Of a stretch of DNA of 42,447 nucleotides, positions 856 to 32,918 are shown one piece after another. How positions within the stretch are numbered: the stretch's first letter is position 1; every line of letters starts with the position of its first letter. A program made the position numbers and the translations under genes. The stretch is from a virus, in IMG/VR virus record IMGVR_UViG_3300031774_000045, positions 1 through 42,447 of that record. One strand, 5' to 3'. The notes beneath the pieces are model-generated. The model was not told where the DNA came from. It saw nothing but the letters and a program-made list of their open reading frames with translations, and ran no database searches.

Positions 856-1074
856 ATGGTTGTATTAATCTCTGAAGTATTAGGGTCGGTTTATACACTA
901 GACCCGAATACTAATACCGAATTGTATTATCAACCACTTAACGAAGATAATACTTATTCATCCAATTTTAATGATTTTAATGTTGTTGACTGGTTAAGTA
1001 TTGCAGGAGAAGATGATAATGTAGAAAAGGAATTAAATCGTATTAATACACTATTAAAAGCAGATTTTCTATAG
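856..1074 (+). CDS. small hypothetical protein, 72 aa
   Basis: ATG at 856, two bases after the preceding stop; GGAGGA at 839-844 is a plausible ribosome-binding site. The 72-residue protein is acidic (VLISEVLGSVYTL at the start, AGEDDNVEKELNRINTL near the end) with no Cys/His motif or membrane segment. It closes the small-gene run and is followed by the gene-poor 1075-1453 gap. Family and function are not recognised. Confidence 0.7.
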   Translation: MVVLISEVLGSVYTLDPNTNTELYYQPLNEDNTYSSNFNDFNVVDWLSIAGEDDNVEKELNRINTLLKADFL

Positions 1075-1121
1075 TTTTATCCTTTATTTGTATTAAAAAT
1101 GTCTTTTTAAATGTATATGAG

Positions 1122-1185
1122 TTTTCCACATCGTTGTGGAAAAGTATAGTTAAACGTGTGGAGAAAGGTATAGTTATGTGGAAAA
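1122..1185. other. cluster of four DnaA-box-like sites (candidate origin or DnaA-binding region)
   Basis: TTTTCCACA occurs on the + strand at 1122-1130, and its reverse complement TGTGGAAAA at 1135-1143 and 1177-1185. A one-mismatch copy, TGTGGAGAA, lies at 1157-1165. The last three are in the same orientation, 22 and 20 bp apart, about two helical turns each. TTTTCCACA is the DnaA box described for Synechococcus oriC (from memory) and differs by one base from the E. coli box TTATCCACA. The first two sites also form a 9-bp hairpin with a TCGT loop. An AT-rich stretch lies just upstream, as a duplex-unwinding element would. Binding of host DnaA is inference. Confidence 0.55.
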
Positions 1186-1225: not shown

Positions 1226-1272
1226 TTAAATCCTCTCAGACCTTATGTTTATGATCAATTAAATCCTCTCAG
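1226..1272. repeat. 14-bp direct repeat pair
   Basis: TTAAATCCTCTCAG occurs exactly at 1226-1239 and 1259-1272, 33 bp apart. The bases right after the copies, AGACCT at 1238-1243 and AGGTCT at 1271-1276, are reverse complements, so the two copies can also be joined in a stem. It lies 40 bp after the DnaA-box cluster and may be a second protein-binding element of the same control region. Confidence 0.7.
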
Positions 1273-1375
1273 GTCTTGTGATCTAAGCGAGCATTCTATC
1301 ACGATCGCCGCCAAATGTCAACCGACCGCTGATAAGTTTTGCCAGGGAATGATGACATAAAATATTAAGACTTTC

Positions 1376-1383
1376 GATAAATA
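1376..1383 (+). promoter_or_regulatory. late-promoter-like box GATAAATA
   Basis: GATAAATA matches the T4 late consensus TATAAATA at 7 of 8 positions. It lies 70 bp before the ATG at 1454, further than the other late-like boxes in this window, so its role is less certain. Confidence 0.4.
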
Positions 1384-1453: not shown

Positions 1454-1627
1454 ATGACAGTCGCTGTTAGTCAAGTACAAAAGCAACGTTATAGAATCAC
1501 GTTAGATTTGGACGTGTTGAGTGATTTTAACCCTCATCAGATTGATTGGCAAGAACTATTTAATTTGGAAGGTGCAGAACATTGTCAAGCATATGTTGAG
1601 GACCTCAGTAAACCTGATAAGTGGTAA
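1454..1627 (+). CDS. small hypothetical protein, 57 aa
   Basis: ATG at 1454, stop TAA at 1625-1627; AAGGA at 1442-1446 is a likely ribosome-binding site. The 57-residue product (MTVAVSQVQKQRYRITLDLD at its start) is acidic towards its C-terminus and contains a QIDWQELFNLEGAE segment. It is the first gene behind a near-consensus sigma70 promoter, so early expression is likely. No family is recognised. Confidence 0.65.
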   Translation: MTVAVSQVQKQRYRITLDLDVLSDFNPHQIDWQELFNLEGAEHCQAYVEDLSKPDKW

Positions 1628-4012: not shown

Positions 4013-4414
4013 ATGCCTCTAGAAAGGGTAAGCCAAGGTTTCAAAGATATTAGTATGACCTTTCAGAAGAATCCTCTGAATGGTGATATTATAGGTCTTA
4101 AAAATGAGAATGCAATTGCGCGTTCAATAAGAAATATTGTGTTTACATTTCCTGGAGAAAAGTTTTTTGATGAAAATTTTGGTTCTAGAGTGTCAAAAAC
4201 ACTATTTGATAATATTGATGACTTAAGTGCTTCCTTAATTCAAGAGGAAATTAAGTCATCAATTGCAAATTATGAACCAAGAGTTGAACTAGTGAGTGTT
4301 AAAGCATATCCTGATCCAGATAATAACTCTTTTGAGATAACAATTATCTATAGAATCATTGGTGCGGATGTTTTGCCACAACAATTAGAATTTGTATTGC
4401 AACCAACAAGGTAA
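4013..4414 (+). CDS. 25: gp25, baseplate wedge subunit (lysozyme-like fold)
   Basis: The 133-residue length equals that of T4 gp25 (132). The N-terminal half (NPLNGDIIGLKNENAIARSI, then NIVFTFPGEKFFDENFGSRV, about residues 20-62) and the later YRI segment are typical of the gp25/W family. This structural protein adopts a lysozyme-like fold without needing enzymatic activity. In T4 it sits in the wedge core with gp6 and gp53 and helps nucleate sheath assembly. It starts the baseplate operon behind a late promoter box. Its TAA abuts the ATG of gene 6 with no spacer, so the two are likely translationally coupled. Confidence 0.93.
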   Translation: MPLERVSQGFKDISMTFQKNPLNGDIIGLKNENAIARSIRNIVFTFPGEKFFDENFGSRVSKTLFDNIDDLSASLIQEEIKSSIANYEPRVELVSVKAYPDPDNNSFEITIIYRIIGADVLPQQLEFVLQPTR

Positions 4415-6340
4415 ATGCCATTAGTCAACTTCAATAATCTGGATTTTGACCAGATTAAAACAACTCTTAAAGATTATTTAAGAGCAAATTCAAATTTTAC
4501 TGATTATGACTTTGAGGGATCTAATCTCTCATCGATTATTGACGTATTGGCATATAATACATACATCACTTCATATAACGCGAATATGGTCGCAAATGAA
4601 GTATTCATTGATAGTGCAACTTTAAGAGAAAATGTAGTATCTCTTGCACGAAATATTGGTTATTTGCCTAGATCAAGGAAAGCATCTATTGCAACAATCA
4701 GTTTTTTCGTTGATTTGAGTGATGTTACTCCTGCACCATCAACATTAACGCTGAAAAGAGGTCCTGTTTGTGCTTCACAGGGTTCTTTTGCACAAGAATC
4801 ATTTGTTTTCTCCATTATAGAAGATATTACAGTTCCTGTAGTTGATAATATTGCTTCATTTGATGAAATTTCTGTTTATGAAGGCAGTTTAATCGTATCA
4901 AACTTTACATATTCTTCTCAAAATCCAAATCAAAAGTTTATTTTGGATAATAGTGGGATCGATACTCAATTAATTAAAGTTTCTGTTAAAAATAATTCAG
5001 CAGCGACGGCAACTGTCAAATATACATACCAAGATGATATTTTAGACATTGATAGTGGATCAAAAGTCTTTTATCTGCAAGAAATTGATGATGAAAGATA
5101 TGAAATATTCTTTGGTGATGGTGTTTTTGGTAGAAAGTTAGAAGAAAGTAATTATGTTGAAGCATCATACATTGTAAGTAGTGGTGACAGTGCAAATGGT
5201 GTTAGTCAATTTGCATATAGTGGTATCTTACAATATACCAGAAATGGTATTACATATTCTGTAACAACTGGAGTGTCACTTGTCACTACAGATTCAGGTT
5301 CTTCTGGTGGAGAAGAGATTGAAGATGTAGATTCAATTAGAAAATTTGCTCCTAAGATCTATGCATCTCAAAATAGAGCACTGACATCAAATGACTATGA
5401 GAATCTTATACCATCTAAGATTTATCCAGAAACTGAATCTATTTCTGTATTTGGTGGGGAAGAATTGGTTCCTCCTCAATATGGAAAGGTCTTTATTAGT
5501 ATTAAACCTCGATTTGGTGACTTCTTACCAAATCTAATTAAAGAAAATATCAAACTCAAACTTAAAAAGTATGCTGTTGCGGGTATTGTATCTGAAATTC
5601 TAGATCTGAAGTATTTGTATGTTGAAGTGGACTCAAATGTATACTACAACACCAATTTGGCACCCAATACAGACTATGTTTCAAGTTTAGTACAAAATAA
5701 TGCAATAAAATATTCAGAATCAACAGAATTGAATAGGTATGGTGCAAGATTTAAGTATAGTAAATTCTTAAAAATAATTGATGATAGTGATGTCTCAATT
5801 ACATCCAATATAACGACAATTCAAATAAGAAGAGATTTGAGAGTTGTCTTGAATGCTATTTCAGAATATCAAATTGGATTTGGTAATGAATTTCATATCA
5901 AAAATCCAAACGGATTTAATATCAAGACTAGTCCCTTTAGGGTATCTGATATTTCAAGTGAAGTATATCTCTCTGACATTCCAAATTCAAATAAAGAAAT
6001 GGGAACACTTTTCCTATTCACACTTCCAAACAAAAATTCCACAACTCCAACAATAGTAAAGAGAGGTATTGGAACGATTGATTATAAGAAGGGAATACTA
6101 ACTCTGAATCCAATCAATATAGTTTCTGGAAAAATTAAAGATGGGCAGGCAATTATGGAAATTTCTGCATGTCCTAAATCAAATGATGTTGTCGGAGTAC
6201 AGGATCTTTATTTGCAACTAGATATTAGTAGTAGTAATTTTGATATGGTTGTTGATGATATTGCTTCTGGATTAGATCCATCAGCATCAAATTATAATGT
6301 CACTTCTAGCTACAGCAACGGGAATTTAGTAAGACCATAA
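4415..6340 (+). CDS. 6: gp6, baseplate wedge subunit
   Basis: The 641-residue protein is close to T4 gp6 (660) and follows gp25 directly, as expected. The N-terminal region (LDFDQIKTTLKDYLRANSNF, then SSIIDVLAYNTYITSYNANM, residues about 8-60) is the family signature, followed by a baseplate J-like core with FFGDGVFGRKLEESNYV (about residues 231-247) and a SIRKFAPKIYASQNRALTSN segment (about 307-326). gp6 dimers form the continuous ring that joins the six wedges around the hub and rearrange when the sheath contracts. No inserted repeat domains are visible, unlike in the downstream baseplate genes. Confidence 0.93.
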   Translation: MPLVNFNNLDFDQIKTTLKDYLRANSNFTDYDFEGSNLSSIIDVLAYNTYITSYNANMVANEVFIDSATLRENVVSLARNIGYLPRSRKASIATISFFVDLSDVTPAPSTLTLKRGPVCASQGSFAQESFVFSIIEDITVPVVDNIASFDEISVYEGSLIVSNFTYSSQNPNQKFILDNSGIDTQLIKVSVKNNSAATATVKYTYQDDILDIDSGSKVFYLQEIDDERYEIFFGDGVFGRKLEESNYVEASYIVSSGDSANGVSQFAYSGILQYTRNGITYSVTTGVSLVTTDSGSSGGEEIEDVDSIRKFAPKIYASQNRALTSNDYENLIPSKIYPETESISVFGGEELVPPQYGKVFISIKPRFGDFLPNLIKENIKLKLKKYAVAGIVSEILDLKYLYVEVDSNVYYNTNLAPNTDYVSSLVQNNAIKYSESTELNRYGARFKYSKFLKIIDDSDVSITSNITTIQIRRDLRVVLNAISEYQIGFGNEFHIKNPNGFNIKTSPFRVSDISSEVYLSDIPNSNKEMGTLFLFTLPNKNSTTPTIVKRGIGTIDYKKGILTLNPINIVSGKIKDGQAIMEISACPKSNDVVGVQDLYLQLDISSSNFDMVVDDIASGLDPSASNYNVTSSYSNGNLVRP

Positions 6341-6343
6341 CAA

Positions 6344-9300
6344 ATGTCAGATAAAAGAATCCAGTTTAACACAATTATCAATAACCAACTCCCACCTTAT
6401 ATCAAGGAGGAGTTTCCATTAGTTGCTGATTTTCTATCGCAATATTATATTGCTCAGGAATTCAAGGGATCTTCAATTGATCTTATACAAAATATTGATC
6501 AATATATAAAACTTGATGAGTCAACTTCACTTGTTGAATCATCGGTATTATATTCGGATATTGATTTAGATGATACTACTATTACAATTGATATTTCAAA
6601 AACTCCTGGAGGAACTAAAAGTTTTCCAAATTCGTATGGATTGATTCAGATTGATAATGAGATCATTACTTATACTGGAAAAACAGTTGATTCATTTACT
6701 GGTTGTATTAGAGGTTTCTCTGGAGTCACATCCATTGATGCTGAAGTAGAATTTTCATCTACTGAGGCAGATTCTCATGCTGCAGGAACAACAATCACAA
6801 ATCTGAGTGATTTGTTTCTCAAAAAATTCTTACTAAAAACAAAAATACAATTAATTCCTGGAATTGAAAATAGAGAACTTGATTCAAAAGTAAATCAAAA
6901 TATTTTAATAAAGCAATTTAAGGATTTTTATAGTAGCAAAGGAACTGACGAATCTTTTCAAATTCTTTTCGGAGCACTTTATAATGAAAAAGTAAAAATT
7001 GTAAGGCCAAGAGAACATTTATTAAGACCTTCAGATGCAAGATATAGAGTTACCAATGACTTTGTTGTAGAGAGTGTATATGGAAATCCATATGATCTTA
7101 CAAATCTTACATTATTTCAGAAAGCATATAATGGTATTAACCCCGCATATGGTCCTGTAGCATCAGTTGAAAAAATTTCTACATATGATAATTCAGATTA
7201 CTATCAATTAAAGATTGATGGTGGTTATGATAGAGATATTACTTATAATGGTGCAATATATGGTGATTTTTCTGCTCATGCAAAAACAAAAGTCATAGGA
7301 TCAGTATCTGCAGGAACCACTACAATTGATGTTGATTCTACTATTGGATTTCCAAATAGTGGAGAATTGTATGTAAACTATTCAAATTCAACTGGAATTG
7401 TTTCATATACATCAAAAACAAACAATCAGTTTATAGATTGTACGAATGTAACTGATAGTATTGCAGATACTTCATATATTGGCATTAATACTTATGCATC
7501 CGCAACTACTGGATTCGGAACAGAAATTTCTGTTAGAATTACTTCTGTCATCGATTCATTAACTTTAGATCCAGACTCCTATTTTTATACTAAAGGAGAT
7601 AATGTAAATATAAAAACTCTGGGAGAAGAAAATAATAGTATAAAATTTAAGAATTGGTTACTTAATGTTGCACCATCATATAAAGTTAAAAGTTTATCCG
7701 CAATAAGCACTGCTAATAAAATATATGCATTGGAATTTGATAAAGATCATATTTTTTATTCCTTTGATAATATTAAAATAACAGATGAAAATAATACTAT
7801 TGTTTCTGGATATATTTCTGAGGTAAGAAGCAGCAAAAAAGTAGTTGTAATATTAGATACACAAATTACTGTTTCTGATTCAAAAATTTATACTGCAAAA
7901 AGAATATTATCAAAACCCAATTTTAGTAATTTTAAAGGTGCAAATATTTTTAATGCAAATGTTCATAACACTTATGCACAAGGTGATACAGTTTTAATTT
8001 CTGCAGATTCGCTACCATTTTTTGATAATTCGCCATTAAATGTAGGATCTGGATCTATTTCTATAACTGGGACGTTTGTGGGGGATACCTTTCAAATTAC
8101 ATCATTAACTGATCATGGATTTTATACTGGAGATGAAGTTTACTATGCTCCAGAAAAAGTAGTTGTAAATGATACAATTGTAGATGGAACTTCTTTGGGA
8201 ATTGAAGAAGGACTATACTTTGTCAAGAGAATTGACTCCAATAATATAAAACTATCCAGAAGTAGATCTGATATTGATAATTCAAGATTTATAACTTTAG
8301 ACACTTCTATGGTTATAACAAATAATACATTATGCCCATATAAACTGTATGGAAAGGATTTAAAATCACAAAAACTTTTAAGAGAAATTCGTACTACAGA
8401 AATTACTGGAAAAGAATATAAAACAAATCCAGGAAAAATTGGAATTCTTGTTGATGGTGTGGAAATTTTAAATTATAAATCTTCTGACCTTTTATATTAT
8501 GGGCAAGTAAATGAACTTCTTGTAACCTCTCCCGGAAACAACTATGATATTATCAATGTACCAGAACTAACTGTTAATGATCGATCAGGAATTGGAGTTA
8601 CTGCACATCCTAGCATTCTTGGAGATCTAAAACGAATTGATATTATTGACGGTGGATTTGATTATCTAGAAGATCCAAAAATAGACATTACAGGAGGAAA
8701 TGGTGTAGGAGCGCAAGCAAAGGTTCACACCAAATTACAAACACATATAAATGAATTTAATTCTCAAATTGCTTCCAATTTAGTTTCCATTGGGGCATCA
8801 CTGTCTACAATTGGGTTTTCTACTTATCATAAGTTTAGGAATGGCGAACAAGTCATATATCAAACGAACGCTCAGACAGCAGTAGGAGGTCTCTCTACAG
8901 GCGCAAAGTATAATGTTGGGGTAGAGGATCCAAATACCGTTAAATTGTATAATACGTTTGCTAATGCTATATCTGGCATTAATACAGTTGTTTTGTCAAC
9001 ATATGGTATTGGAAATCATAATCTGGAATCCGTCAATAAAAAGAAAGTTATAGATTCCGTTAGTATAGTATCTCCTGGTGTTGGATATGAAAATAAAAAG
9101 AGAACTTGTTTTCCAGTAGGAATTGTTACATCCAAAAATTACATCAATATTGATAACCACAATTATCAATCAGGCGAACTATTAAAGTATTACAATAATG
9201 AAACTGGTATCTCAGGAATATCTACAAATACTGAGTATTATGTGACTGCAGTTGATGAAAATAATTTCCAATTGTCAGAAGTTGGTGCATCAGATGATAG

Positions 9301-12300
9301 AGAGTTTTTCTATAGAACCAATCAATATATAAATCTTGAATCTCAAGGTGATGGACTTCATTCTTTCAACTATCCAGAAATTTCTGTAAAAGTATTAGGA
9401 AATTTTGGTGTTTATTCAACATCGTTAACTGAATTTGAAGAATTCAAAGCTAAAATTAGACCAGTCTTTAGAGGATCCATTCAATCTGTACATTTAAGTT
9501 CTAAAGGATCTGGTTATGGATCTGAACAGACCTTAAATTCCCACAGAAAACCAAATGTTACAATAAATCAAGGCACCGGTGCTATTTTAAACCCAATTGT
9601 GTCAAATGGGAAGATTGTTGAGGTTTTAATTAATAATGTTGGATCTGGATATTATTCAGTTCCAGATTTAGTACTTACTGGTACTGGTACTGGAGCGTCT
9701 TTCACTCCAATAATTGAAGATGGTAAAATAATCTCAGTTAAGGTTATTTCTAAAGGATCGGGGTATACTCCGAGTACAACTACGTTACTTGTCACTACAC
9801 CAGGAAGTGGTTTTATTGTAGATCCCCAGATTCAGACTTGGAATGTTAATAATGTTCAAAAATATAGAGATAGAATATCGGCCGATGACGGGTTTATTGT
9901 AGAATCATCTAATCCCAACTTTGATCTACAATATACTCATTTATATGCCCCAAGAAAGTTAAGGGAAAAAATATATTCTATTAATCAGGTTGGAGAATAC
10001 TTATATTTCGCAAAAGATTTAGTAAAAAGTGGCAATGTAGAAAGTCTATCGTCAAACCACTCACCTATAATTGGTTGGGCTTACGATGGAAACCCAATTT
10101 ATGGTCCATACGCTTATGAGAATGCGACTGGTGGTAGTGTAACTCTAATGAAATCTGGTTATAGTATTAATTTGAAGGCAAATAGACCATCAACTTCATA
10201 TTTTCCGGAAGGATTCTTTATTGAAGATTATGAATACTTGAATTATGCTGATGATTCTGTTTTGGATAAAAATAATGGAAGATTTGGCATTACTCCAGAT
10301 TATCCAAATGGAGTTTATGCATATTTTTCAACAATAAACCCACTTAGTGCTGATTCTGGAGGAAGTTTCTCTAATTATAGAAGTCCAGTATTTCCATACT
10401 TGATTGGTGATGCATTTAAATCAAAACCAAACCCATTTAACTTCAAATCTTCATCAAATCAAAATGAATTTGATTTAAATGAAACTGACTATATGAGAAA
10501 TGTAGAGTATTACAATATTGGTGATGGACAGTTTTATTATGACTATATTGACCTACCAAATAATTTAGATCAAACATTTACAATCAAAAGTACATATTCT
10601 GGCAATATTGATGACGTTGTAGTTAATAGCGGTGGAGACGGATACAAAGTTAACGATACATTGGTTTTTGATAATGAAGATATTAATGGAAATATCATTG
10701 GAAATGGTGCATATGCAAAAGTTTCAAAAATCTGCGGAAAAAATGTAGATTCTATTAGTGTTGCAACAACTAGTTTCTATGGTGTTGAATTTTATCCAGG
10801 AAATGGAAAGAGTGATTATGTTGCGTATTTTGATTCGCCACACAATCTAAGAAACACAGATAGAATCAATGTTTCTAGTCTAAGTATTGCTTCATCTAAG
10901 ATAGGTGGATCTTATGTTGCTGGAATATCTTCAAATGCATTATTTTTAGTTGGATTGGGATCTTCTATTGTTGGTCTTGACGTTGTTGCAAATACTGGAA
11001 TAGTAACATCTATTAATGTTGCTGGAAATTTAACTTTTAATGCAATTAGAGAAAATGATATTATTCAAATTTCAGATGAAAAATTAAAAGTTCTAAATGT
11101 TAATCAAAATGCATCAATACTAAGAGTTTTGCGTGAAATTGATGGTACTGTTGGTGTAGCACATACAATTGGAGAAACCATTTATGAAAATCCAAGAAAA
11201 CTAACAATTAATGTTGGATTTAGAAGTGATTATCGATATAATGTAAATAGACAATTATATTTTAATCCAGTAGAGAGTGTAGGTCTAGGAACTATTTCCG
11301 GATTGGGTATTGGTGTCACTTTAAGTATACCAAATCCCGGAGTTGGAATTACTGAGATATTTGTTCCCACAAAAACCCTATATCTACCTTCACATGGATT
11401 TATTACTGGCCAGGCACTTACATATTCTCCAAATGGAGGAGATGTGCTTGAAGTATCTCCAGATGGAATTTCTACAAGTGTGACATTATCGGATCAATCG
11501 ATTTTATATGTTGCAAAAGTTTCTGATGATTTAATTGGACTTTCTACTGTGACAGTTGGTTTGGGTACGACAGGTAATTTTGTAGGAATATCCACAACAA
11601 CGAGTACGATTGGAACATTATTCTTTACTGGAATAGGAACAGGATTAAACCATAGTTTCAATACTAGGTATACTCCAATTACTGGACAGATTTCTAAAAA
11701 TACAGTAACAGTATCTACTTCTCAAACTCATGGGTTGGCAAATAATGATTTTGTTAATATTAACGCAAGTCCCGGATTAACAACGACACATTCGATCAAA
11801 TATAATGATTATAATAGAATTCTGATTACCAACACTAGATCATTCTCTGGCGTTAACACCACATCAAATACTATTAATATTGATGACCATGGATATAAAA
11901 CAGGACAAAAGATTTTACATACTGCAACTACACCAGCTGGTGGGTTAGTAAATGAAAAGACATATTATGTTGTAGTGTTTGATAGTGATAATATTAGACT
12001 CTCCACAACTCTTTTTGATGCTCAAAGTCAAAGTGCAAAAGTAGTTAATTTAACTAGCACTTCTTCTGGCAATATTTCTCTAGTAAACCCACAAATTATT
12101 GCATATAAAGATTCTACATTAAACTTCGACTTATCAGATTCCAGTCTCTCATATCAATTCTCATTTAATAATTATCCGGCATTTGATTTTAATCTTTATA
12201 GTGATTCTAAATTTACTGATTTATTTGAAACAACCAGGATAACAAACAACTTTGAGGTTCAAAAAACTGGAACTATTGGAGTTTCAACTGATGCTCAAAT

Positions 12301-15300
12301 TAGTATCAAAGTAAGTGGAGATTTGCCAGAAAAACTTTTCTATAAATTGTCTCCAGTATTTGATAATAATATCCCTGTAGTTAAGCAGGAAGTTATTGTT
12401 GACGATACTTTTGTTGGATTTGGTGAGATTCAAATTAATAATAGTAAGTATAATGGAAATAAGCAAATAATAGTTGATACAGATAAATCATTCACATATA
12501 CTCTAAATGAATCTCCAGAAAATTCATCATATTCTGCAGGTATTTCATCATTAACGTATGATACTGATTCATTATTTGCTAATGGTCCTATCTTTGATAT
12601 AAAACTTACTAATAAAGGATTTGGTTATTCAGATCTTCCAAATATAACCACAATAAATTCATCCATTGGTAAGAATGCTATTGTTGAGGTTAAAGGAAAT
12701 ACTATTGGTAGACCTAGGAGTGTAAAAGTTAATAATGTTGGATTTAATTTCCCATCAGACCATACTCTAAGACCGTCAACAATTCTACCACAAATTATAA
12801 GAGTAGATCCATTATCTTCATTTAAATCTATTGCAGTTTCTTTCTTTGGAAAGGGTTATGGAGTTGCTCCTAAACTTTTAGTATTTGATGGTAAAACAAA
12901 TGAGATCATTCCTGAAGTTGATATTAGATATGTTCCAAGAAACAATGTAGTTTCTATATTTAAAAATACTTATGGTATTAGTAATGTAACTCCAAAGATT
13001 CTTCCAATAGAAAATCCAAATGGTGTTCCAATTTCCAATATTGAATATAATAAAACTACAGATCAAGTTACAGTTACTTTAGCAGTTGGATTTAGTACAG
13101 CAGATTCTTTCCCAATTAAAGTAAATGATAAGGTAATGATTGAAAATATCAGTACCGGAATAGGAACTACTGCCAATGGATACAATTCAGAAGGATACGA
13201 TTATTCACTATTCACTATTGTTGCTGTTCATGAAAATCTTGGCGGACTTGGAGCAACTGTTGCTTATAATATGGGCAATTTATTATCAGGATCCAATTTC
13301 CCAGGAACGTTTGACAGTGCAAATTCTTCAGGGAGAATAATCCCAGAAAAAGATTTCCCTACATTTGATATTGAGTTAATTGCCAACAACTTTATTAAAG
13401 GTGAAGAAGTTTTCTCAAATACGGTTTTAAATGGTGTTGTTGATGATTGGGATCCTAAGAATCAATACCTTAAGGTACTATCAAAAGACACTTTTGTAAC
13501 TGATGAGAAAATTTATGGAGTTACATCCAAAAGTCAAGCACTTGCATCCAATGTTACTCAATTTTCCAGTTTTGCTAACTTAAATCCTTCTGCAAGAATA
13601 GAAAATGGTTGGCAAGAAAGTGCTGGATTCCTTAATTCTGATATTGAGAGACTGCAAGATGGATTGTATTACCAGAACTTCTCATATAGTTTGAAATCAA
13701 AAATTGATTATGATAGTTGGGATGATGTTGTAAGTACAATGAATCATACTGCAGGATTTAAAAAATTCTCAGATTTACAACTAGAATCAGATTCTGAAAC
13801 TAGAATGTCTGTTGGTGTATCGACATCATTAACAAATATTGAAATTATTAACCATCTGACAGGAGTTGTTGATTTAAACTGTGTTTATGATTTTGATTTG
13901 GTAAGAGAAAATTCTTTAATCATTTCTTCAAGATTGGTTTCTGATGAAATAATCTTTGAAAATAGAATACTTAATGATTATCTCGAATCAAAAGGAAATC
14001 GAGTTCTTGATATTGATGATTTTAGTGGGACATTTAATAGTAACCCAAGACCAACACCTTATTCTGAAGTATATCGATTTGATAAGTCTCAGGTAAGAGC
14101 TCAAAAACTATTTACATATGTATCAGATAAGAGATACTATGATGAGCGTCAGTTGATGATAGTCACTATTGTTAATGATAAAAATCAAGGATATTTAAAT
14201 CAATATGGCAGAGTTAAGAGCACATATGATATTGGAAGTTTTGATTTAGTTATGAGCGGTAGTGATGGAATTGTTAATTTCTATCCAAATAAGTTCAGAA
14301 TTAATGACTTTAACATTAGTGTTCTTGCATATAATGTCTATGATTCGATCCTTTCTGTTGGATCAACTGCAATTGGAGAATCTTTAGTAAGTACATCTAG
14401 TACTGTTGTTTCTACTGGAACCACTACTAATATTGTTTCTTTAGGTTCTACTTACACTACAAATAAAGTTCTTGTTGAGATCACCAAAGATGATGGAGAA
14501 TATCAATTTGATGAGATTAATATTATCTCAAATGGAACTGATGTTGAAATGGTTGATTATGGGCAACTCACAACAGACCCATCCATCTATTCTATAAGTG
14601 GATTTGGCACATACTATTCGTATATTGATGGATCAAATATTAAACTAGACTTTATTCCTGCAGTAGGAGTTGCATGTACAATCAATTCAATGCAAGTTTC
14701 TATCGCAAACACTGAAACCAGTGGAATAGGAACTATCACGATGGACAGAGTAATCTTAGAAACAAAGACTACTTCTATTTCAGCATCTGGATCACCAAGT
14801 GCTACTGTTGTTGGATCTTACTCTGACACTTATGATACTGCATATTTCATTGTACAAGTTGCAGATGAAACAAACATTGAATATCAGATGTGTGAAATTC
14901 TTGTTATTGATGACGATACGAATGCATACATTACAGAATTTGGTAATGTTGAAACCTCTTCTAGTCTTGGAACATTTGATGCAAATAGGAATGGAACTGA
15001 CGTTGAATTAACATTTACTCCAAATCCAAGCATTGATGTTCAGGTTAAAGTTTATATGAATGCTCAATATCATGCTGATAGTGACAATGATGTAATTGAT
15101 TTTACTAATGGAACTATTGAAAGTGCTGAAGGTACTTACACTGGAACGGAATCTGACATTAAGAGAAAATTTGCATTAAAGCATAAAACATATCCAATCT
15201 TTGAGAAATATTTTGATGGTAGTTCCTCATTAGTTAATCTAACAACCAATTCCGTCACTCTCAACAATCACTACTTTGTAACTGGAGAGAAGTTAAATTA

Positions 15301-18300
15301 TCACTATGCTGGTGCTGGATCAACTCAAGCAATTCAAATTGCATCCACAACTGTTCCTGGAATTGGAGTTACAGACAAACTTCCAAGTGAATTATATGCA
15401 GTTAAGATTAATGAGAATACCCTGGAATTTGCATCTACTGCTGAAAATGCATTAAAAGCAACTCCAGTCACATTTGATATTACAAGTGTTGGTATTGGAA
15501 CAAATCACAGATTTGTTGCAAATAATCAAAACGCAAAAGTTATTGTAACCATTGATAATGTTATACAATCTCCCATTGTAGGCGCTTCATTGACAACTAC
15601 TTTAGTCTCTGGTGCCAGCCAAGTTGATGACTTACTTACATTCTCTGGAATAACATCATTCTTTAGTGGAGATTTGATAAAAATTAATGATGAGGTAATG
15701 AAAGTTGAAGGTATTGGTATTGGTGCTACTAATATAATTAGAGTCAGAAGACCTTGGATGGGCACTGAGGTTGGAGTTCACTCTAGTGGATCAACAGTAA
15801 TTAAGATTGAAGGTAATTATAATATTGTAGGTAATGAAATTAACTTTGCTACAGCACCTTTTGGAAATATTCCTATTGGATCTATAACTAATCCTCCGGA
15901 TGAAAGAGATTGGACTGGAATCACAACTAGTTCATCTTTCCATGGAAGATCTTTCATGAGATCTGGAGTACCTAATAGTTCTGATGAGACTTATTATAGA
16001 AATTATATTTTTGATGATATTTCTGATCAGTTTACTGGATCACGTAGAGATTTTACCCTTAAGGAGTCGGGATCAAATATAGTTGGAATTAAGACAGAAA
16101 ATGCAATTATTTTAATAAATGAAATTTTCCAAGATCCTGGAGTATCAAACGACTACTCTTTGGAAGAAATTAGTGGAATAACTACAGTTTCATTTACTGG
16201 AACTGCAACATCTGCACCTCATGATGCAAATAGTACCAATCTTCCTTTAGGTGGAGTTATTGTTTCTGTTAGTTCTACTGAAGGATTTGGTTATCAACCT
16301 TTAGTTTCAGCGGGAGGAACTGCTGAGGTTTCAACAGCAGGAACTATAACATCAATTTCTATTGGATATAGTGGATCTGGATATAGATCAGGAATTGGTC
16401 AAACTGTTAGTGTTTCAATTCAACAGGAAAGTCTTGATGGTACAGATATAGTTGCTATTGGTACTGCTATTATTGGAACAACAGGATCTTTAACTGGTGT
16501 TGCAGTAACAAATTCTCAAGTATTCTACGCACCAAAAACTATAACAAATGTTGGATATAATTCAATAACTGGTATGAGTACAGTTACTACATCGACTGCA
16601 CATGGATTATCAGTTGGTAATGAAGTTGTATTGAGTGGAATTGCTCTTACTTGCACATATTCGGGTTCTAAATCTATTGCAGGATTTGCTTATAGTGCTG
16701 CAAGTGGTATTGCAACAGTAACGACTTCAGGTGCTCATGGATATAGTGTTAATCAGGATGTAATTTTCACAGGTATTGGTATGACTTGTGCGATTGATCC
16801 TTCCACTACACACACTTATCCTAGAACTACTGATCCATATTATACTGGATCAAGAATTACTAGTATTGGTAGTTCTACTGAATTTGTTACAAATGTGGGT
16901 GTTTCTACTGTTCCTACCTTCTATACTTCTGGAGGAACTGTTCAAGGTGCTATAATAGCACCTAGAGTATCTGATCCTGCTGCAGGTCAAGCAACAGTTA
17001 ATCTTGTAATTGATGATAATACTTTCTCAGTTAATACTGGAATTTCTACACGTCAACATTTTTATTCTAGAGGTGGAAAAGTCAATAAACCATTAAAAGT
17101 GTTATTTGACGATCCCCTATCATACTCCAATATTCCATTAATCTATAGTTCTTCATCAGTTGGTATCGGTACAGAATCCAAAATTGATATTGTTGTTGGT
17201 CAAGGATCTAGTGTAATTGATTTTGAAATTAAAAATACTGGATATTCTTATGGTATAGGTGACATTTTAACAGTTCCCTTTGGAGGAACAACCGGAATTC
17301 CAACATCTGCGGGATTCAATGAGTTTCAGATTACGATAAAACGGACATTTAATGATAAATTTAGTGGTTGGTCTATTGGAGAACTCCAAGTATTGGACAG
17401 TATTGAAGACCTATTTGATGGAGAAACTGTTACATTCACACTTAAGTCCAATCAACAACTTGTTTCTATCAATTCCAGATCTGGATCAAATGTCAATATT
17501 GAAGATACTTTACTGGTATTTGTTAATAATATCTTACAAATCCCAAATGAGGGTTATGTATTTAACGGAGGTAGTTTAATTACCTTCACGGAAGCACCTA
17601 AAGTTGATGATCTCTGTAAGATCCTTTTCTATAAAGGAACTGGATCAGTTGATGTTATTCCGACGGATATCCTAGAAACTGTTAAGGTTGGAGATAATCT
17701 GAAAATTGGATATGATTCCTTTATTGGACAACCTGCAACTTTCCAAGAAGAAGCAAGAACAGTCACTGAAATTAACTCTACTGACTTTGTTACTACGAAT
17801 CCATATTATGGTCCAGGAAATACTTCAAATGAAACCTTAACTAGACCTGTAGTATGGTGTAGGCAGACAGAAGATAAAATTATTAATGGTAAGGAAATTG
17901 GAAAAGACAGGATTCATTATGAACCTCGTATCAATCCATTTGCTTATTTGGTTCAATCGGTTGGAATTGGAACAACTATAGTTTCTGTTGATAACATTAG
18001 ACCATTCTTCAATCCAATCAATGAAAATAATATAAGTCTTGATTTCCAGAATAATGTTACATTTATTTCACAGGAAACTCAAGTATCTGCTTCTGCAACT
18101 GCTGTTGTTTCTGGACTTGGAACAATTTCATCTATAGTTATTTCTGATGGTGGAATTGGTTACTCAAATGCTCCTATCGTTATTATTCAAAATCCAGTTG
18201 GATTAGGAACAACTACTAGAGCATCTGCAACAGCATCAATTACTGCAGGTATCGTTACTTCAATAACGATGACTGGGCCTGGAACAGGATACACATCAGT

Positions 18301-18889
18301 TCCTCTTGTCTTGATTGAAACACCAACGTTCACCAAAGAATCAAATTCTGTGACTACATATGAAGGGGATTCTGGAATTATTGTTGGCGTAACTACTACT
18401 AGTGTAGGTGTAGCGACTGGTATCATCTTAGATCTCTATATTCCAGAAGATTCTTTCTTTAGAGACACTACAGTTGTTGGATTGACAACCATTAGTGGAA
18501 TTCAAACTGGTTATTATCTCTCAGTTTATAATTCAAACGTTGGTGATAGTGTTACTTCATTGGACAGTACAGGTGCTCAAGTTGGAGTCGGAACAACATG
18601 TTTAGATAATATATATGAAGTGATCTCTGTTTCTATTGGTCAAACTAATGCTCCAGGAATTGGACTTACATATGTTGCTAAGGCAACTGTTAGTGTATCT
18701 GATTACAATGGTCTTTCTGGAATTGGCAATAGCAACTACTATGGAAACTATAGTTGGGGAAGAATTACCCTACCATCAAGATCCAAATCTAAAGAATATA
18801 ATGCATATTTGAATTCTGGATCTGTTGGAATAACTACAGGAACTATTGTTCAAAGAACTAATACTCTCAAGTATTTAAATTATACCTAA
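6344..18889 (+). CDS. 7: giant gp7-like baseplate wedge protein, 4181 aa
   Basis: One uninterrupted frame of 12.5 kb. The N-terminal ~260 residues resemble the C-terminal third of T4 gp7. KDFYSSKGTDESFQILFGAL plus YNEKVKIV (about 193-221) aligns with the T4 YSTKG..S..FLF..LYNEEVEI stretch, and gene 7 is expected between 6 and 8. An RG-G-H module is inserted into this domain (about 74-150). The rest is a mosaic of beta-rich modules: HG-x-TGD segments (about 585, 824, 932, 1684, 1846, 2973), GSGY..P repeats (about 1056-1156, 3936-3996), RG-GT-H modules (about 1571-1626, 3106-3158) and a YHYH-like domain (about 1240-1340). There is no enzymatic motif. In T4, gp7 starts wedge assembly; here the long arm probably also projects as a fibre. 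T4 gp7 is 1032 residues, so this is about four times longer. The gp7 identity is inferred from a short homology plus order. Confidence 0.75.
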   Translation: MSDKRIQFNTIINNQLPPYIKEEFPLVADFLSQYYIAQEFKGSSIDLIQNIDQYIKLDESTSLVESSVLYSDIDLDDTTITIDISKTPGGTKSFPNSYGLIQIDNEIITYTGKTVDSFTGCIRGFSGVTSIDAEVEFSSTEADSHAAGTTITNLSDLFLKKFLLKTKIQLIPGIENRELDSKVNQNILIKQFKDFYSSKGTDESFQILFGALYNEKVKIVRPREHLLRPSDARYRVTNDFVVESVYGNPYDLTNLTLFQKAYNGINPAYGPVASVEKISTYDNSDYYQLKIDGGYDRDITYNGAIYGDFSAHAKTKVIGSVSAGTTTIDVDSTIGFPNSGELYVNYSNSTGIVSYTSKTNNQFIDCTNVTDSIADTSYIGINTYASATTGFGTEISVRITSVIDSLTLDPDSYFYTKGDNVNIKTLGEENNSIKFKNWLLNVAPSYKVKSLSAISTANKIYALEFDKDHIFYSFDNIKITDENNTIVSGYISEVRSSKKVVVILDTQITVSDSKIYTAKRILSKPNFSNFKGANIFNANVHNTYAQGDTVLISADSLPFFDNSPLNVGSGSISITGTFVGDTFQITSLTDHGFYTGDEVYYAPEKVVVNDTIVDGTSLGIEEGLYFVKRIDSNNIKLSRSRSDIDNSRFITLDTSMVITNNTLCPYKLYGKDLKSQKLLREIRTTEITGKEYKTNPGKIGILVDGVEILNYKSSDLLYYGQVNELLVTSPGNNYDIINVPELTVNDRSGIGVTAHPSILGDLKRIDIIDGGFDYLEDPKIDITGGNGVGAQAKVHTKLQTHINEFNSQIASNLVSIGASLSTIGFSTYHKFRNGEQVIYQTNAQTAVGGLSTGAKYNVGVEDPNTVKLYNTFANAISGINTVVLSTYGIGNHNLESVNKKKVIDSVSIVSPGVGYENKKRTCFPVGIVTSKNYINIDNHNYQSGELLKYYNNETGISGISTNTEYYVTAVDENNFQLSEVGASDDREFFYRTNQYINLESQGDGLHSFNYPEISVKVLGNFGVYSTSLTEFEEFKAKIRPVFRGSIQSVHLSSKGSGYGSEQTLNSHRKPNVTINQGTGAILNPIVSNGKIVEVLINNVGSGYYSVPDLVLTGTGTGASFTPIIEDGKIISVKVISKGSGYTPSTTTLLVTTPGSGFIVDPQIQTWNVNNVQKYRDRISADDGFIVESSNPNFDLQYTHLYAPRKLREKIYSINQVGEYLYFAKDLVKSGNVESLSSNHSPIIGWAYDGNPIYGPYAYENATGGSVTLMKSGYSINLKANRPSTSYFPEGFFIEDYEYLNYADDSVLDKNNGRFGITPDYPNGVYAYFSTINPLSADSGGSFSNYRSPVFPYLIGDAFKSKPNPFNFKSSSNQNEFDLNETDYMRNVEYYNIGDGQFYYDYIDLPNNLDQTFTIKSTYSGNIDDVVVNSGGDGYKVNDTLVFDNEDINGNIIGNGAYAKVSKICGKNVDSISVATTSFYGVEFYPGNGKSDYVAYFDSPHNLRNTDRINVSSLSIASSKIGGSYVAGISSNALFLVGLGSSIVGLDVVANTGIVTSINVAGNLTFNAIRENDIIQISDEKLKVLNVNQNASILRVLREIDGTVGVAHTIGETIYENPRKLTINVGFRSDYRYNVNRQLYFNPVESVGLGTISGLGIGVTLSIPNPGVGITEIFVPTKTLYLPSHGFITGQALTYSPNGGDVLEVSPDGISTSVTLSDQSILYVAKVSDDLIGLSTVTVGLGTTGNFVGISTTTSTIGTLFFTGIGTGLNHSFNTRYTPITGQISKNTVTVSTSQTHGLANNDFVNINASPGLTTTHSIKYNDYNRILITNTRSFSGVNTTSNTINIDDHGYKTGQKILHTATTPAGGLVNEKTYYVVVFDSDNIRLSTTLFDAQSQSAKVVNLTSTSSGNISLVNPQIIAYKDSTLNFDLSDSSLSYQFSFNNYPAFDFNLYSDSKFTDLFETTRITNNFEVQKTGTIGVSTDAQISIKVSGDLPEKLFYKLSPVFDNNIPVVKQEVIVDDTFVGFGEIQINNSKYNGNKQIIVDTDKSFTYTLNESPENSSYSAGISSLTYDTDSLFANGPIFDIKLTNKGFGYSDLPNITTINSSIGKNAIVEVKGNTIGRPRSVKVNNVGFNFPSDHTLRPSTILPQIIRVDPLSSFKSIAVSFFGKGYGVAPKLLVFDGKTNEIIPEVDIRYVPRNNVVSIFKNTYGISNVTPKILPIENPNGVPISNIEYNKTTDQVTVTLAVGFSTADSFPIKVNDKVMIENISTGIGTTANGYNSEGYDYSLFTIVAVHENLGGLGATVAYNMGNLLSGSNFPGTFDSANSSGRIIPEKDFPTFDIELIANNFIKGEEVFSNTVLNGVVDDWDPKNQYLKVLSKDTFVTDEKIYGVTSKSQALASNVTQFSSFANLNPSARIENGWQESAGFLNSDIERLQDGLYYQNFSYSLKSKIDYDSWDDVVSTMNHTAGFKKFSDLQLESDSETRMSVGVSTSLTNIEIINHLTGVVDLNCVYDFDLVRENSLIISSRLVSDEIIFENRILNDYLESKGNRVLDIDDFSGTFNSNPRPTPYSEVYRFDKSQVRAQKLFTYVSDKRYYDERQLMIVTIVNDKNQGYLNQYGRVKSTYDIGSFDLVMSGSDGIVNFYPNKFRINDFNISVLAYNVYDSILSVGSTAIGESLVSTSSTVVSTGTTTNIVSLGSTYTTNKVLVEITKDDGEYQFDEINIISNGTDVEMVDYGQLTTDPSIYSISGFGTYYSYIDGSNIKLDFIPAVGVACTINSMQVSIANTETSGIGTITMDRVILETKTTSISASGSPSATVVGSYSDTYDTAYFIVQVADETNIEYQMCEILVIDDDTNAYITEFGNVETSSSLGTFDANRNGTDVELTFTPNPSIDVQVKVYMNAQYHADSDNDVIDFTNGTIESAEGTYTGTESDIKRKFALKHKTYPIFEKYFDGSSSLVNLTTNSVTLNNHYFVTGEKLNYHYAGAGSTQAIQIASTTVPGIGVTDKLPSELYAVKINENTLEFASTAENALKATPVTFDITSVGIGTNHRFVANNQNAKVIVTIDNVIQSPIVGASLTTTLVSGASQVDDLLTFSGITSFFSGDLIKINDEVMKVEGIGIGATNIIRVRRPWMGTEVGVHSSGSTVIKIEGNYNIVGNEINFATAPFGNIPIGSITNPPDERDWTGITTSSSFHGRSFMRSGVPNSSDETYYRNYIFDDISDQFTGSRRDFTLKESGSNIVGIKTENAIILINEIFQDPGVSNDYSLEEISGITTVSFTGTATSAPHDANSTNLPLGGVIVSVSSTEGFGYQPLVSAGGTAEVSTAGTITSISIGYSGSGYRSGIGQTVSVSIQQESLDGTDIVAIGTAIIGTTGSLTGVAVTNSQVFYAPKTITNVGYNSITGMSTVTTSTAHGLSVGNEVVLSGIALTCTYSGSKSIAGFAYSAASGIATVTTSGAHGYSVNQDVIFTGIGMTCAIDPSTTHTYPRTTDPYYTGSRITSIGSSTEFVTNVGVSTVPTFYTSGGTVQGAIIAPRVSDPAAGQATVNLVIDDNTFSVNTGISTRQHFYSRGGKVNKPLKVLFDDPLSYSNIPLIYSSSSVGIGTESKIDIVVGQGSSVIDFEIKNTGYSYGIGDILTVPFGGTTGIPTSAGFNEFQITIKRTFNDKFSGWSIGELQVLDSIEDLFDGETVTFTLKSNQQLVSINSRSGSNVNIEDTLLVFVNNILQIPNEGYVFNGGSLITFTEAPKVDDLCKILFYKGTGSVDVIPTDILETVKVGDNLKIGYDSFIGQPATFQEEARTVTEINSTDFVTTNPYYGPGNTSNETLTRPVVWCRQTEDKIINGKEIGKDRIHYEPRINPFAYLVQSVGIGTTIVSVDNIRPFFNPINENNISLDFQNNVTFISQETQVSASATAVVSGLGTISSIVISDGGIGYSNAPIVIIQNPVGLGTTTRASATASITAGIVTSITMTGPGTGYTSVPLVLIETPTFTKESNSVTTYEGDSGIIVGVTTTSVGVATGIILDLYIPEDSFFRDTTVVGLTTISGIQTGYYLSVYNSNVGDSVTSLDSTGAQVGVGTTCLDNIYEVISVSIGQTNAPGIGLTYVAKATVSVSDYNGLSGIGNSNYYGNYSWGRITLPSRSKSKEYNAYLNSGSVGITTGTIVQRTNTLKYLNYT
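6575..6810 (+). other. RG-G-H module inserted in the gp7-like domain
   Basis: Residues about 74-155 of the giant protein read as a beta-rich unit: ELI-type strand with IDNEIITYTG, then IRGFSGVT and an SHAAGTTI end. The same order of motifs recurs near residues 1571-1626 and 3106-3158, in the DUF4815 giant and at the C-terminus of gp15. Its position inside the gp7 homology suggests insertion into a surface loop. Confidence 0.5.
9509..9830 (+). repeat. GxGY beta-repeat array in the gp7-like giant
   Basis: Three GSGY copies (about residues 1056-1156), each followed by a P-V type strand and a G-rich turn (SSKGSGYGS, NVGSGYYSVPDLV, SKGSGYTPS), are spaced 40-50 residues apart. The unit equals the one expanded in gp14 and seen in gp8. 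Confidence 0.7.
10063..10365 (+). other. YHYH-like domain in the gp7-like giant
   Basis: Around residues 1240-1340 the sequence IIGWAYDGNPIYGPYAY is followed about 70 residues later by LDKNNGRFGITPDYPNGVYA. This is the arrangement of the YHYH domain (DGxPIYGP, then LDxxNG and a Y-x-Y end), found in secreted and phage structural proteins. The final YHYH motif itself is degenerate here (YAYF). Confidence 0.6.
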
Positions 18890-20470: not shown

Positions 20471-23400
20471 ATGTCTCAGCAAACAAATTTAAACGTAGCT
20501 CCATATTTTGATGATTTTGATGCAAATGATGATTATTATAAGATTTTATTTAAACCCGGATACCCTATACAGGCAAGAGAATTAACTGGTTTGCAATCAT
20601 TAATGCAAAACCAGATTGAGAAATTTGGTCAGCATTTTTTCAAAGAGGGTGCTAAGGTAATTCCCGGCAATACCAGTTATAATCCAGCATATAGTGCAGT
20701 TGAATTAAATAATAATTTCTTAGGAGTCCCTGTCTCTGCATATGCAGAAAGTTTAGTTGGGATGACTATTAATGGAGAATCGTCAGGAGTTACTGCTATA
20801 GTTGATAGTGTATTATTGCCTTCAGATTCTGAAAGGGGAAATTTAACTCTTTATATTAACTATATTGGGTCAAATACTCAAGATAATGAATCTGAAACTT
20901 TTTCTGATGGTGAAAATTTAACATCAAATGCTGCAATTGATACTACATTACTTGGAAATGCTAATATTGAAGCAGGATCACCCTTTGCATCTACTATCTC
21001 CAGCGATGCAGCTTCTGTTGGAACAAATTTCACCGTTCTAGAGGGTGTTTATTTTTTCAGAGGTCAATTTGTTAATATAAAAGAAGAAAAATTAATATTA
21101 TCCCAATATGATACCAATACCAATGCAAGAGTTGGATTTTTTATTAGTGAAGAAATTATCAACTCAGATTTGGATGAAAGTTTAACTGATAATTCTCAAG
21201 GATATAATAATTATGCTGCTCCAGGAGCAGATAGAATGAAGATTACTGTAAGATTATTTAAAAAAGATCTTACAGATTTTGATGATACTAATTTTGTTGA
21301 ACTTGCTAAAATCCAAGATGGCAACATAAGAATACAACCATTAACGACTGATAAGAGTATTCTTGCAGATGAATTGGCAAAGAGAACATATGAAGAGTCT
21401 GGTGATTATACTATTTCACCCTTTGAAGTAGCAGTTAAGGATTCTTTGAATGATAATGTAGGAAATGGTGGAATTTATAAGGAAGGTCAATTTACATATA
21501 CGGGATCAACTCCCGATCCAAATTTAGCATTATATAAAATTTCTTCTGGTAAAGCATTTGTAAAAGGATATAGAGTTGAAACCAATGGTACAGTTTACTT
21601 GGATGCAGATAAACCCAGAACAACTAAAACTTTAAAAGATCAGTCTATTGTTTATAATACTGGACCAACTTTTGCCATAAACAATGTTTATGGATCTCCT
21701 AAAATTGGAATTGGCAACACATTTGTATTAAGTTTAAGGAATCAGAGAGTTGGTTCTGCCGCAACTATTGCTGCTGGAAGTGAAATTGGCGTAGCAAGAG
21801 TATATGACTATAGATTAGAATCTGGATCTTATAGTCTTACTAATCAAAACTTAAATAATTGGGGAATTGGTCTATATGATGTTCAATATACAACTGACGT
21901 AACTCTCAATTATCCAGTTACTTTGAGCACTCCTGTTCATATTAAAGGAAAAAACAGTGGTGCTACAGGTTATCTTTTAAATGATGTAAGTGATTCAAAA
22001 AGTATTAAAATTTACAATACTGAAGGATCTTTTATTGTAAATGAATCTTTTATTTTTAATGGACAACCGGTAGGATATGTTGGTGCGGCAATAACTGCCA
22101 ATAATTCATCAAATGTCAAGTCTGTTCATGGGGTTGTTGGTACAGCAGTATCATTTTCTGCCGATATAATTCAATCTGATAGATATATTATTGGTATTGC
22201 TACAGTTAGTGCAGTTGATGCTGGAACTGGAATAAGTACAGTAACTAGTTTAAATCCAATTTTCCCGGGAAACCTAGTAAAAGAGAATGATATTATCAAA
22301 TATACTGATGTCTCTTTGGGAAATCCAGTATTTGCAAGAGTTATTGAAGTTGGAAAGAATTCTGTAAAAGTTGATCAAGTAGAAACTGTTGTAGGAATTA
22401 CTTCTTCAATATTACCCGCATCACAATTGGACATTACAGATTTGACTGTAGTAGCATCTTATCTTGACACTTCTACAGACAATACTCTTTATACACAACT
22501 TCCAAAGAATAATATTTCGGATGTTGATTTAACATCATCAACATTGACCATTAGAAAACAATATACTGTAAATATTGTAAATAATCAGTTATCAGTTGCT
22601 GTAAGTGCAGGAACTGGTGAAGTATTCTTACCTTTTGATGAGGAAAGATATTCTCTTGCAAGAAGTGATGGTTCGTATGAAACATTAACTTCTGATATGT
22701 TTGCTCTTATTGGTGGAGGAGAACAACTACAAATTAATGGTTTAGGTGCAAATGATACTGGTGCCATACTTATTTCTACGTTGAGAAAATCAAATCCAAA
22801 GGCAAAGGGTAAGAAAAAGAATAGAGTTAACTCTATCGTTATAAATGCATCCAAAAATGCTGGATCTGGTATTGGAGCAACTACTTTAGATGATGGATTG
22901 GATTATGGCACATATCCATTTGGAACTAGAGTTCAAGATAGTCATATTTGCTTGAACGTCCCAGATATTGTTGATGTTCTTGCAATTTACGAATCTGCGA
23001 ATACAAGTGATCCAACTCCACCAAAAGTTATTTTAAATTCAATAGTAACTCCTTCTGGTACAACATCAGAAATGATTATTGGAGAGGAGATTCGTGGAGA
23101 ATCTAGTGGTGCGTGTGCAATAATTGCAGAAAAAATATCTTCAGATCAAGTTTCATTTATATACAAAAATAAAAAGACCTTTATTGAAGGGGAAACAATT
23201 ATTTCATATGAATCTGATGCAACTGCTATTGCTCAAACATTAAGTGCAGATAGTTTTGATGTTTCTACCAATTATTCATATAGAACTGGACAAAAAGGTA
23301 CTTTCTATGATTATGGAACCATTATAAGAAAAGATAATATCCAAGAGGCTACTAAGAAACTTGTAGTTTACTATTCGTCGGGATATTATGAATCTTCTGA

Positions 23401-31880: not shown

Positions 31881-32918
31881 ATGTTTGAGTATTTTTATAA
31901 CGAGATTCTGAGAAGAACCGTTATTGCATTTGGAACTTTGTTTAATGATATTGTCATTAAACATACAGATGCTGTTGGTGAAATCTCGGAGATAATAAGG
32001 GTTCCTCTTGCATATGGACCCACTCAGAAATTCTTAGCCAGACTGGAACAATCTCCAGATCTGAATAAGTCAACTGCAATGTCCTTGCCGAGGATGTCAT
32101 TTGAGTTTACTGGATTGACTTATGATCCTACTAGGAAAGTTACTACAACTCAGCAGATAATTGTAAAAGATCCTGATGATGGTAGTGAGGTTAAAAAATC
32201 ATATATGCCAGTTCCTTATAATATGCAATTTGAACTGAGCATTATGTCAAAATTAAATGATGATGCTTTGCAAATTATTGAGCAAATTCTTCCATATTTT
32301 CAACCTGCCTTTAGTATATCTGTTCAATTGGTTGACTCTATTCGTGAGAAGAGAGACATTCCTGTAGTTCTTGAGAACATTACTATGCAGGATGATTATG
32401 AAGGTGATTTTAGTACAAGAAGAGTTCTTTACTATACTTTAAGATTTACTGCGAAAACATATATGTTTGGTCCTACTGCAGCTGCAAGCAAGGATATCAT
32501 CAAGAAGTCTACTATCAATTATCTTTCTGGTACAAATACTGCTATTAGAAATAGAGATGTTACTTATTCTGTAAAACCAAGAGCAGTTAGAGATTACACT
32601 GGAGATATTGTAACTTTAATTGATGCAGATATTGATAATGCAACAACTATATTCAATGTTGCAGATGGAACTAAAATTATCGCCAAAAAATATATTGATG
32701 TTAATGGTGAAGAAATGTATGTGAAGACAGTTTCGGGCAATAAATTAACTGTTAAACGTGGTGAGGATGGAACAACAGCAATTGCACATCCTAAGGGAAC
32801 TGAAATTAAAGGAATTGATTACACCGATACTACTACCAGTGTTGGAACAATGGGTGTGGATAGTGCAGTTGTTCCTGATGGCGATGATTTTGGATTTGAT
32901 GGAAGCACATTCTTTTGA
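31881..32918 (+). CDS. 15: gp15, tail terminator / sheath stabiliser
   Basis: The first ~200 residues match T4 gp15 closely: FEYFYNEILRRTVIAFGTLF at the N-terminus, IIRVPLAYGP (38-47), and MQFELSIMSKLNDD with IIEQILPYFQPAF (115-144), which is nearly identical to the T4 EQILPYFQPHF segment. gp15 caps the sheath and tube and binds the neck. The protein is 345 residues against 272 in T4. The extra C-terminal part (about 241-315) carries an RG-GT-H module (NGEEMYVKTV, VKRGEDGTTAIAH, KGTEIKG) like those in the giant baseplate proteins. Its stop is followed by gene 16 with a short overlap or 8-nt gap depending on the start chosen. Confidence 0.92.
   Translation: MFEYFYNEILRRTVIAFGTLFNDIVIKHTDAVGEISEIIRVPLAYGPTQKFLARLEQSPDLNKSTAMSLPRMSFEFTGLTYDPTRKVTTTQQIIVKDPDDGSEVKKSYMPVPYNMQFELSIMSKLNDDALQIIEQILPYFQPAFSISVQLVDSIREKRDIPVVLENITMQDDYEGDFSTRRVLYYTLRFTAKTYMFGPTAAASKDIIKKSTINYLSGTNTAIRNRDVTYSVKPRAVRDYTGDIVTLIDADIDNATTIFNVADGTKIIAKKYIDVNGEEMYVKTVSGNKLTVKRGEDGTTAIAHPKGTEIKGIDYTDTTTSVGTMGVDSAVVPDGDDFGFDGSTFF

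Follow-up and report, generated by a model that had tools for sequence, protein, structure and literature searches.

A DnaA-box array that appears to be one of several exchangeable cassettes in a conserved non-coding region of T4-like cyanophages

Why should a phage of the T4 type carry a compact cluster of bacterial DnaA boxes? No role of DnaA in T4 replication is known to us, phages of this type are considered to replicate without recourse to host initiation proteins, and we know of no replication start site in any cyanomyovirus. The window analysed here, a stretch of viral DNA of 42,447 nucleotides, had been assigned to a T4-like phage in an initial annotation, and the gp25- and gp6-type baseplate wedge proteins encoded at 4013-6340 bear this out. 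Two long ORFs of 4181 and 2494 aa (6344-18889 and 20471-27955) also lie within the baseplate gene cluster.

The array itself (Table 1) was recovered by motif scan as first described, with three exact boxes and one single-mismatch box within 64 bp; the three that share an orientation, stated to be 20-22 bp apart, are the minus-strand boxes, spaced by 22 and 20 bp. No second cluster had been seen in the window, and the three exact boxes of the array indeed prove to be its only exact copies of TTTTCCACA. Three exact boxes in 64 bp were found in none of 400 dinucleotide-shuffled windows (analytic P ~1e-6). Matches with at most one mismatch number 20 in the whole window against 22.9 expected, a total that is not raised, and the signal thus lies in the clustering. 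Of two isolated near matches reported earlier, that near 36549 corresponds to a one-mismatch site at 36547, but no match with at most one mismatch lies near 32859. Boxes 1 and 2 are perfect inverted copies of each other over 9 bp (TTTTCCACA-tcgt-TGTGGAAAA). The AT-rich stretch noted just upstream is present at about 1040-1121, and its right end is kept in relatives.

Table 1. Positions of the array and of the surrounding features in the window
Feature	Position	Strand	Remarks
AT-rich tract with A-runs	1040-1121		1091-1121 (TATTAAAAATGTCTTTTTAAATGTATATGAG) conserved, stops where the cassette starts
DnaA box 1	1122-1130	+	exact TTTTCCACA match
DnaA box 2	1135-1143	-	exact (TGTGGAAAA on the + strand); 13 bp from box 1
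DnaA box 3	1157-1165	-	one mismatch, TTCTCCACA; 22 bp from box 2
DnaA box 4	1177-1185	-	exact; 20 bp from box 3
22-bp element TTAAATCCTCTCAG, two copies	1226-1247, 1259-1280		kin to the repeated TTAAATGTGCTCAGGTCTTGTGATC element
Predicted sigma70-type promoter, TTGACA-17-TAGAAT, TG before the -10	1293-1321	-	predicted by consensus and conservation
ATAAATA	1377-1383	+	look-alike of the T4-type late promoter (TATAAATA); 77 bp upstream of P0001
Predicted sigma70-type promoter, TTGACA-17-TATACT, upstream of P0001	1396-1424	+	predicted by consensus and conservation
P0001, 57-aa protein, PHROG 12516	1454-1627	+	anchor gene of the comparison

The initial annotation took the motif for the DnaA box of cyanobacterial oriC, in agreement with published work: TTTTCCACA is the cyanobacterial DnaA box, bound in vitro by Cyanothece DnaA, and cooperatively when two boxes are present (PMC4674748). 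Tight triple clusters of the box occur in bacterial genomes of many phyla, with cyanobacteria making up a large share of the records listed. The hosts encode DnaA, and a search with the DnaA C-terminal domain found no phage-encoded DnaA in ten phage genomes and the window. Host DnaA is likely the binder of the cyanophage boxes. Upstream of dnaN in genomes presumed, from their gene layout, base composition and size, to be those of marine picocyanobacteria, the boxes are mostly one mismatch off the consensus, whereas the phage boxes are mostly perfect. These dnaN-upstream regions also contain a trio-like CTACTACT, and in presumed picocyanobacterial loci L418-L446 a DnaA-trio-like CTACTACTACT adjoins a TTTCCACA box. 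In the literature, most subscription papers being beyond reach, no report of cyanophage DnaA boxes or of such an origin was found.

Conservation was assessed in loci taken from IMG/VR by the neighbouring protein P0001 (57 aa) or the glycosyltransferase-like P0002, these loci being fragments that are mutually non-independent and drawn from the best 80 matches per scan. Across 131 P0001-anchored loci, the bin 400-200 nt upstream of P0001 contains 93 exact copies of TTTTCCACA, against 0-4 in each of the other 200-bp bins over ±4 kb, and for two control motifs no bin exceeds 6 and 3, respectively; in a de-duplicated locus set, enrichment of the boxes over downstream DNA is about 500-fold. Absence from syntenic relatives had been named as the chief objection to a functional cluster; the cluster is instead conserved in relatives, both in IMG/VR loci and in cultured genomes. 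In the latter, 19 T4-like cyanophage genomes totalling 3.9 Mb, the 52 exact boxes compare with 43 matches to the reversed motif, with no genome-wide enrichment outside the locus, and box pairs no more than 100 bp apart number 5 against 0.08 expected. These close pairs are in S-SM2, S-ShM2 (two), DSL-LC02 and P-TIM68, and all five fall in the intergenic stretch that precedes P0002 or the baseplate genes. The S-SM2 cluster is at the syntenic place (58.06 kb), that of S-ShM2 at 52.8-53.1 kb and that of P-TIM68 at 58.2 kb; several cultured relatives, e.g., Bellamy and SynMITS9220M01, do not have it. Relatives of P0001, P0002 or P0003 are found on 61 of 120 listed viral contigs with three same-strand boxes, and in phages without P0001 the array is mostly 0.7-1.6 kb upstream of P0002. 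The boxes are on the opposite side of the AT tract in freshwater DSL-LC02 and to the right of the promoter element in P-TIM68, so that the order of the parts is not constant in the group as a whole. Within the arrays of relatives, same-strand boxes are mostly 20-22 bp apart, or two helical turns, and the commonest +- spacing is 13 bp, while the order of boxes differs (++-, --, ---, +-+-). The cluster is real and under selection.

A point missed by the initial annotation is that about half of the homologous loci have a different operator array in exactly the same place. When loci with DnaA-type (D), Fur-type (F) and GATA-type (Z) arrays are aligned, both flanks are conserved and the middle is exchanged. 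Strict classification of 98 loci, with thresholds chosen after inspection of the data, gave 39 D, 30 Z and 12 F loci, 17 with none and 0 with two; the probability of no overlap is 2e-6 for D/Z, 0.004 for D/F and 0.03 for Z/F over 78 non-identical regions, with relatedness among loci ignored. Each class motif is strongly enriched relative to downstream DNA. By these sequence comparisons, the same flanks enclose at least three cassettes that exclude one another and are exchanged, the DnaA array being one of them. On the P0002 tree the class changes at least 18 times as against 29 for shuffled labels, indicating that cassettes are inherited locally yet swapped often. The GATA-N8-TATC palindromes of the Z cassette (TGATAATTATTGTTATCA, TGATAATGATATGAATTCGTATCA) are strongly conserved and lie some 330-190 nt ahead of P0001 in loci such as L050, L032 and L038. 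In L027 the same slot, at about 300-200 nt before P0001, is taken by another type of cassette with the inverted repeat TTCGTTTATGCTT ... AAGCATAAACGAA. In L123, L124, L137, L105 and L168 the usual region is replaced by several copies of a repeat of about 30 nt (TCATTCGTGATTAGATAAGATTCGTATAGA) with variable spacers, about 400-150 nt upstream of that gene.

The flanks differ little from one class to another. On the left, the AT tract is near-identical before the DnaA-, Fur-like and GATA-type cassettes of relatives and ends in AAATGTATATGAG; it may act as an unwinding element. On the right, one or more copies of the TTAAATGTGCTCAGGTCTTGTGATC-type element are found in relatives of all cassette classes, and the leftward promoter points into these repeats, then into the boxes and then into the AT tract, its -10 having a median position of -157 to -160 relative to the start of P0001 in every class. 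The leftward transcript, predicted to start near 1286, some 7 nt past the -10, matches no ORF. ATAAATA is located within 110 nt upstream of P0001 in 61 of 76 relatives, nearly always at -73 to -79. Beyond the module, 2107-2135 of the window is a perfect consensus promoter (TTGACA-17-TATAAT) followed by a leader with a conserved element, CCCTAACCTACAGAGGTGACAAAT (about 2211-2234), which many T4-like cyanophages also have ahead of P0002 and which has no Rfam hit.

The proteins that might bind the alternative cassettes can be approached through the hosts. F cassettes read TTCTCAATAAGTnTTnTTTATTGAGAAT, and the consensus for Anabaena FurA, AAATAAATTCTCAATAAAT, includes the TTCTCAATAA found in them (PMC4005646). 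The cassettes also resemble a conserved element of the hosts, the inverted repeat TCTCA...TATTGAGAA that precedes the main fur gene, with small variations, in 12 of 12 presumed picocyanobacterial genomes. The 17-bp Fur-like site is weakly enriched genome-wide in hosts, and the Fur identity, weak from site counts, becomes convincing once fur upstream regions are compared. Both the shared part of the FurA consensus and the fur-upstream repeat make host Fur the likely binder of F cassettes. In the 12 genomes (L515-L526) this fur-upstream repeat has the form TCTCATTAGCNGTTANTATTGAGAA and, judged by its conservation, is itself likely an autoregulatory Fur operator. For the Z cassette, the GATA elements are not enriched in host genomes and have no clear host counterpart. 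Zur was considered and rejected, in that a half site alone fits the inferred cyanobacterial Zur box, NTNANAATGATNATCATTNTNAN (PMC9337993), and the elements show no such host enrichment.

Taken together, these observations are tentatively read as follows, at a confidence just short of an even chance: a selected array of host-DnaA sites lies in a conserved non-coding region, where operators gate leftward transcription that serves replication initiation. The outer parts would be fixed, with the AT-rich tract and its A-runs on the left and the short repeat and a strong leftward early promoter on the right, and between them would sit an exchangeable operator cassette, made of DnaA boxes here and of Fur-type or GATA-N8-TATC sites in relatives. 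A bound host protein would gate transcription running leftward across the array and on into the AT-rich tract; by analogy with T4 oriE, oriF and oriG, the last two of which are R-loop-primed, this transcription would serve initiation of phage replication. DnaA binding, Fur binding, gating and origin function are all inferred here. Replacement of DnaA boxes by Fur-type sites speaks for a shared control role, most simply the gating of leftward transcription, and exchange of cassettes at one site fits such a role better than an origin specific to DnaA alone. By the analogy with T4, replication initiation is the leading candidate for what the leftward transcription may serve, origin function of the module being given about an even chance or less. 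Fur is a regulator and not an initiator, and the cassettes may therefore have no link to replication.

The first alternative to gated transcription is that the module is a true host-DnaA-dependent origin, in which DnaA oligomerizes on the phased boxes and melts the AT tract, a host or phage helicase is loaded, and the other cassettes are sites of other initiators. In its favor, the module has a host-consensus DnaA-box cluster as in an oriC-type origin, the phased boxes directly adjoin a tract that is AT-rich and conserved, predicted transcription is aimed through the site, and the long intergenic space is upstream of baseplate genes. However, no DnaA-trio is found beside the boxes in any of 32 DnaA-class loci, whereas picocyanobacterial oriC regions have CTACTACTACT, and no GC-skew switch occurs at the locus in the complete S-SM2 and S-ShM2 genomes or in the window; the module is thus not a copy of a cyanobacterial oriC. 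The bacterial-type layout first suggested for this locus consequently stands as regards the conserved cluster, but not as regards the trio or the switch in skew. Close relatives, moreover, have Fur-like sites instead, and DnaA is not known in T4 replication. A review of T4 replication makes no mention of the protein (PMC3016281). A DnaA-driven origin is considered unlikely.

It is quite unlikely that the boxes serve titration, by which phage DnaA or Fur boxes would soak up host protein as phage copies mount, so that host replication is stopped or host genes (e.g., for iron uptake) are derepressed. A compact cluster of strong boxes is present, as in a titration site; the phage boxes are closer to consensus than those of picocyanobacterial oriC; and DnaA and Fur are both limited regulators, which makes cassette exchange sensible for a sponge. 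However, a genome has 3-5 boxes, and elsewhere in the 19 cultured genomes the boxes are not enriched, which weakens the simple titration reading offered initially; a sponge also needs no fixed position between the same flanks. Improbable, too, is that the cassettes are operators for phage-encoded proteins of changing specificity, with the match to DnaA and Fur boxes fortuitous or ancestral. The orphan GATA-type cassette and the frame common to all classes fit such binders, but chance hardly accounts for boxes that agree with the host DnaA box at 9/9 positions across dozens of loci, and the F cassette fits the repeat conserved upstream of fur. Lastly, a chance cluster, or a hairpin acting as RNA rather than as protein sites (to which the pairing of boxes 1 and 2 might point), is very improbable and largely refuted, since clustering is kept across many phages, no Rfam match exceeds its family threshold, and box order varies, leaving pairing unconserved, while box sequence stays constant and same-strand spacing mostly so, as expected of protein sites.

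With gated leftward transcription as the preferred reading, the sequences suggest that these phages may sense or exploit a host control protein at a point where no such protein is known to act. A wider notion, possible but doubtful, is that of a replication-control region with a plug-in host-protein cassette: phage lineages would repeatedly swap DnaA, Fur or other operators in one slot and so couple their replication, or early transcription of non-coding RNA, to different host states (cell cycle, iron). If true, it would place replication in the T4 superfamily under the control of host DnaA, to our knowledge undescribed. The conserved module with its DnaA array gives one precise place in which to seek a cyanomyovirus origin, and makes it possible to test whether infection of abundant ocean cyanobacteria is tied to the cell cycle or iron state of the host; because cultured S-SM2, S-ShM2 and P-TIM68 have the cluster, such a test is feasible now.

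Among known systems, the module perhaps resembles T4 oriE, as a non-coding control region that would be gated by exchangeable host-protein operators. T4 oriE, the RepEA/RepEB region, is close to baseplate genes. It has iterons, depends on an early-mode promoter and occupies the same place in relatives (PMC3016281), and the present module likewise has evenly spaced short direct repeats (20-22 bp) kept in syntenic relatives and a conserved position; an early-mode promoter reading into it is predicted by consensus and conservation. The oriE iterons, of undefined role, are however not described as DnaA boxes, nor is swapping of host-regulator operators described there (PMC3016281), and the origin proposed here is a candidate. 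Cyanobacterial oriC has in common with the module clustered TTTTCCACA boxes beside AT-rich DNA (PMC4674748). The phage module differs in being without DnaA-trio, dnaN and skew switch, and in having evenly phased boxes, nearly all of which match the consensus perfectly. The E. coli datA locus, which titrates DnaA, likewise packs strong DnaA boxes closely together at a site other than oriC, but the phage array has a fixed position in a control region and is replaced by other operators. Finally, cyanophages are known to carry host-regulator operators such as Pho boxes and NtcA sites, to which the arrays are alike as host-regulator sites in cyanophage DNA; those operators, however, precede coding genes and serve nutrient genes, whereas the DnaA- and Fur-type arrays lie in a non-coding module and replace one another.
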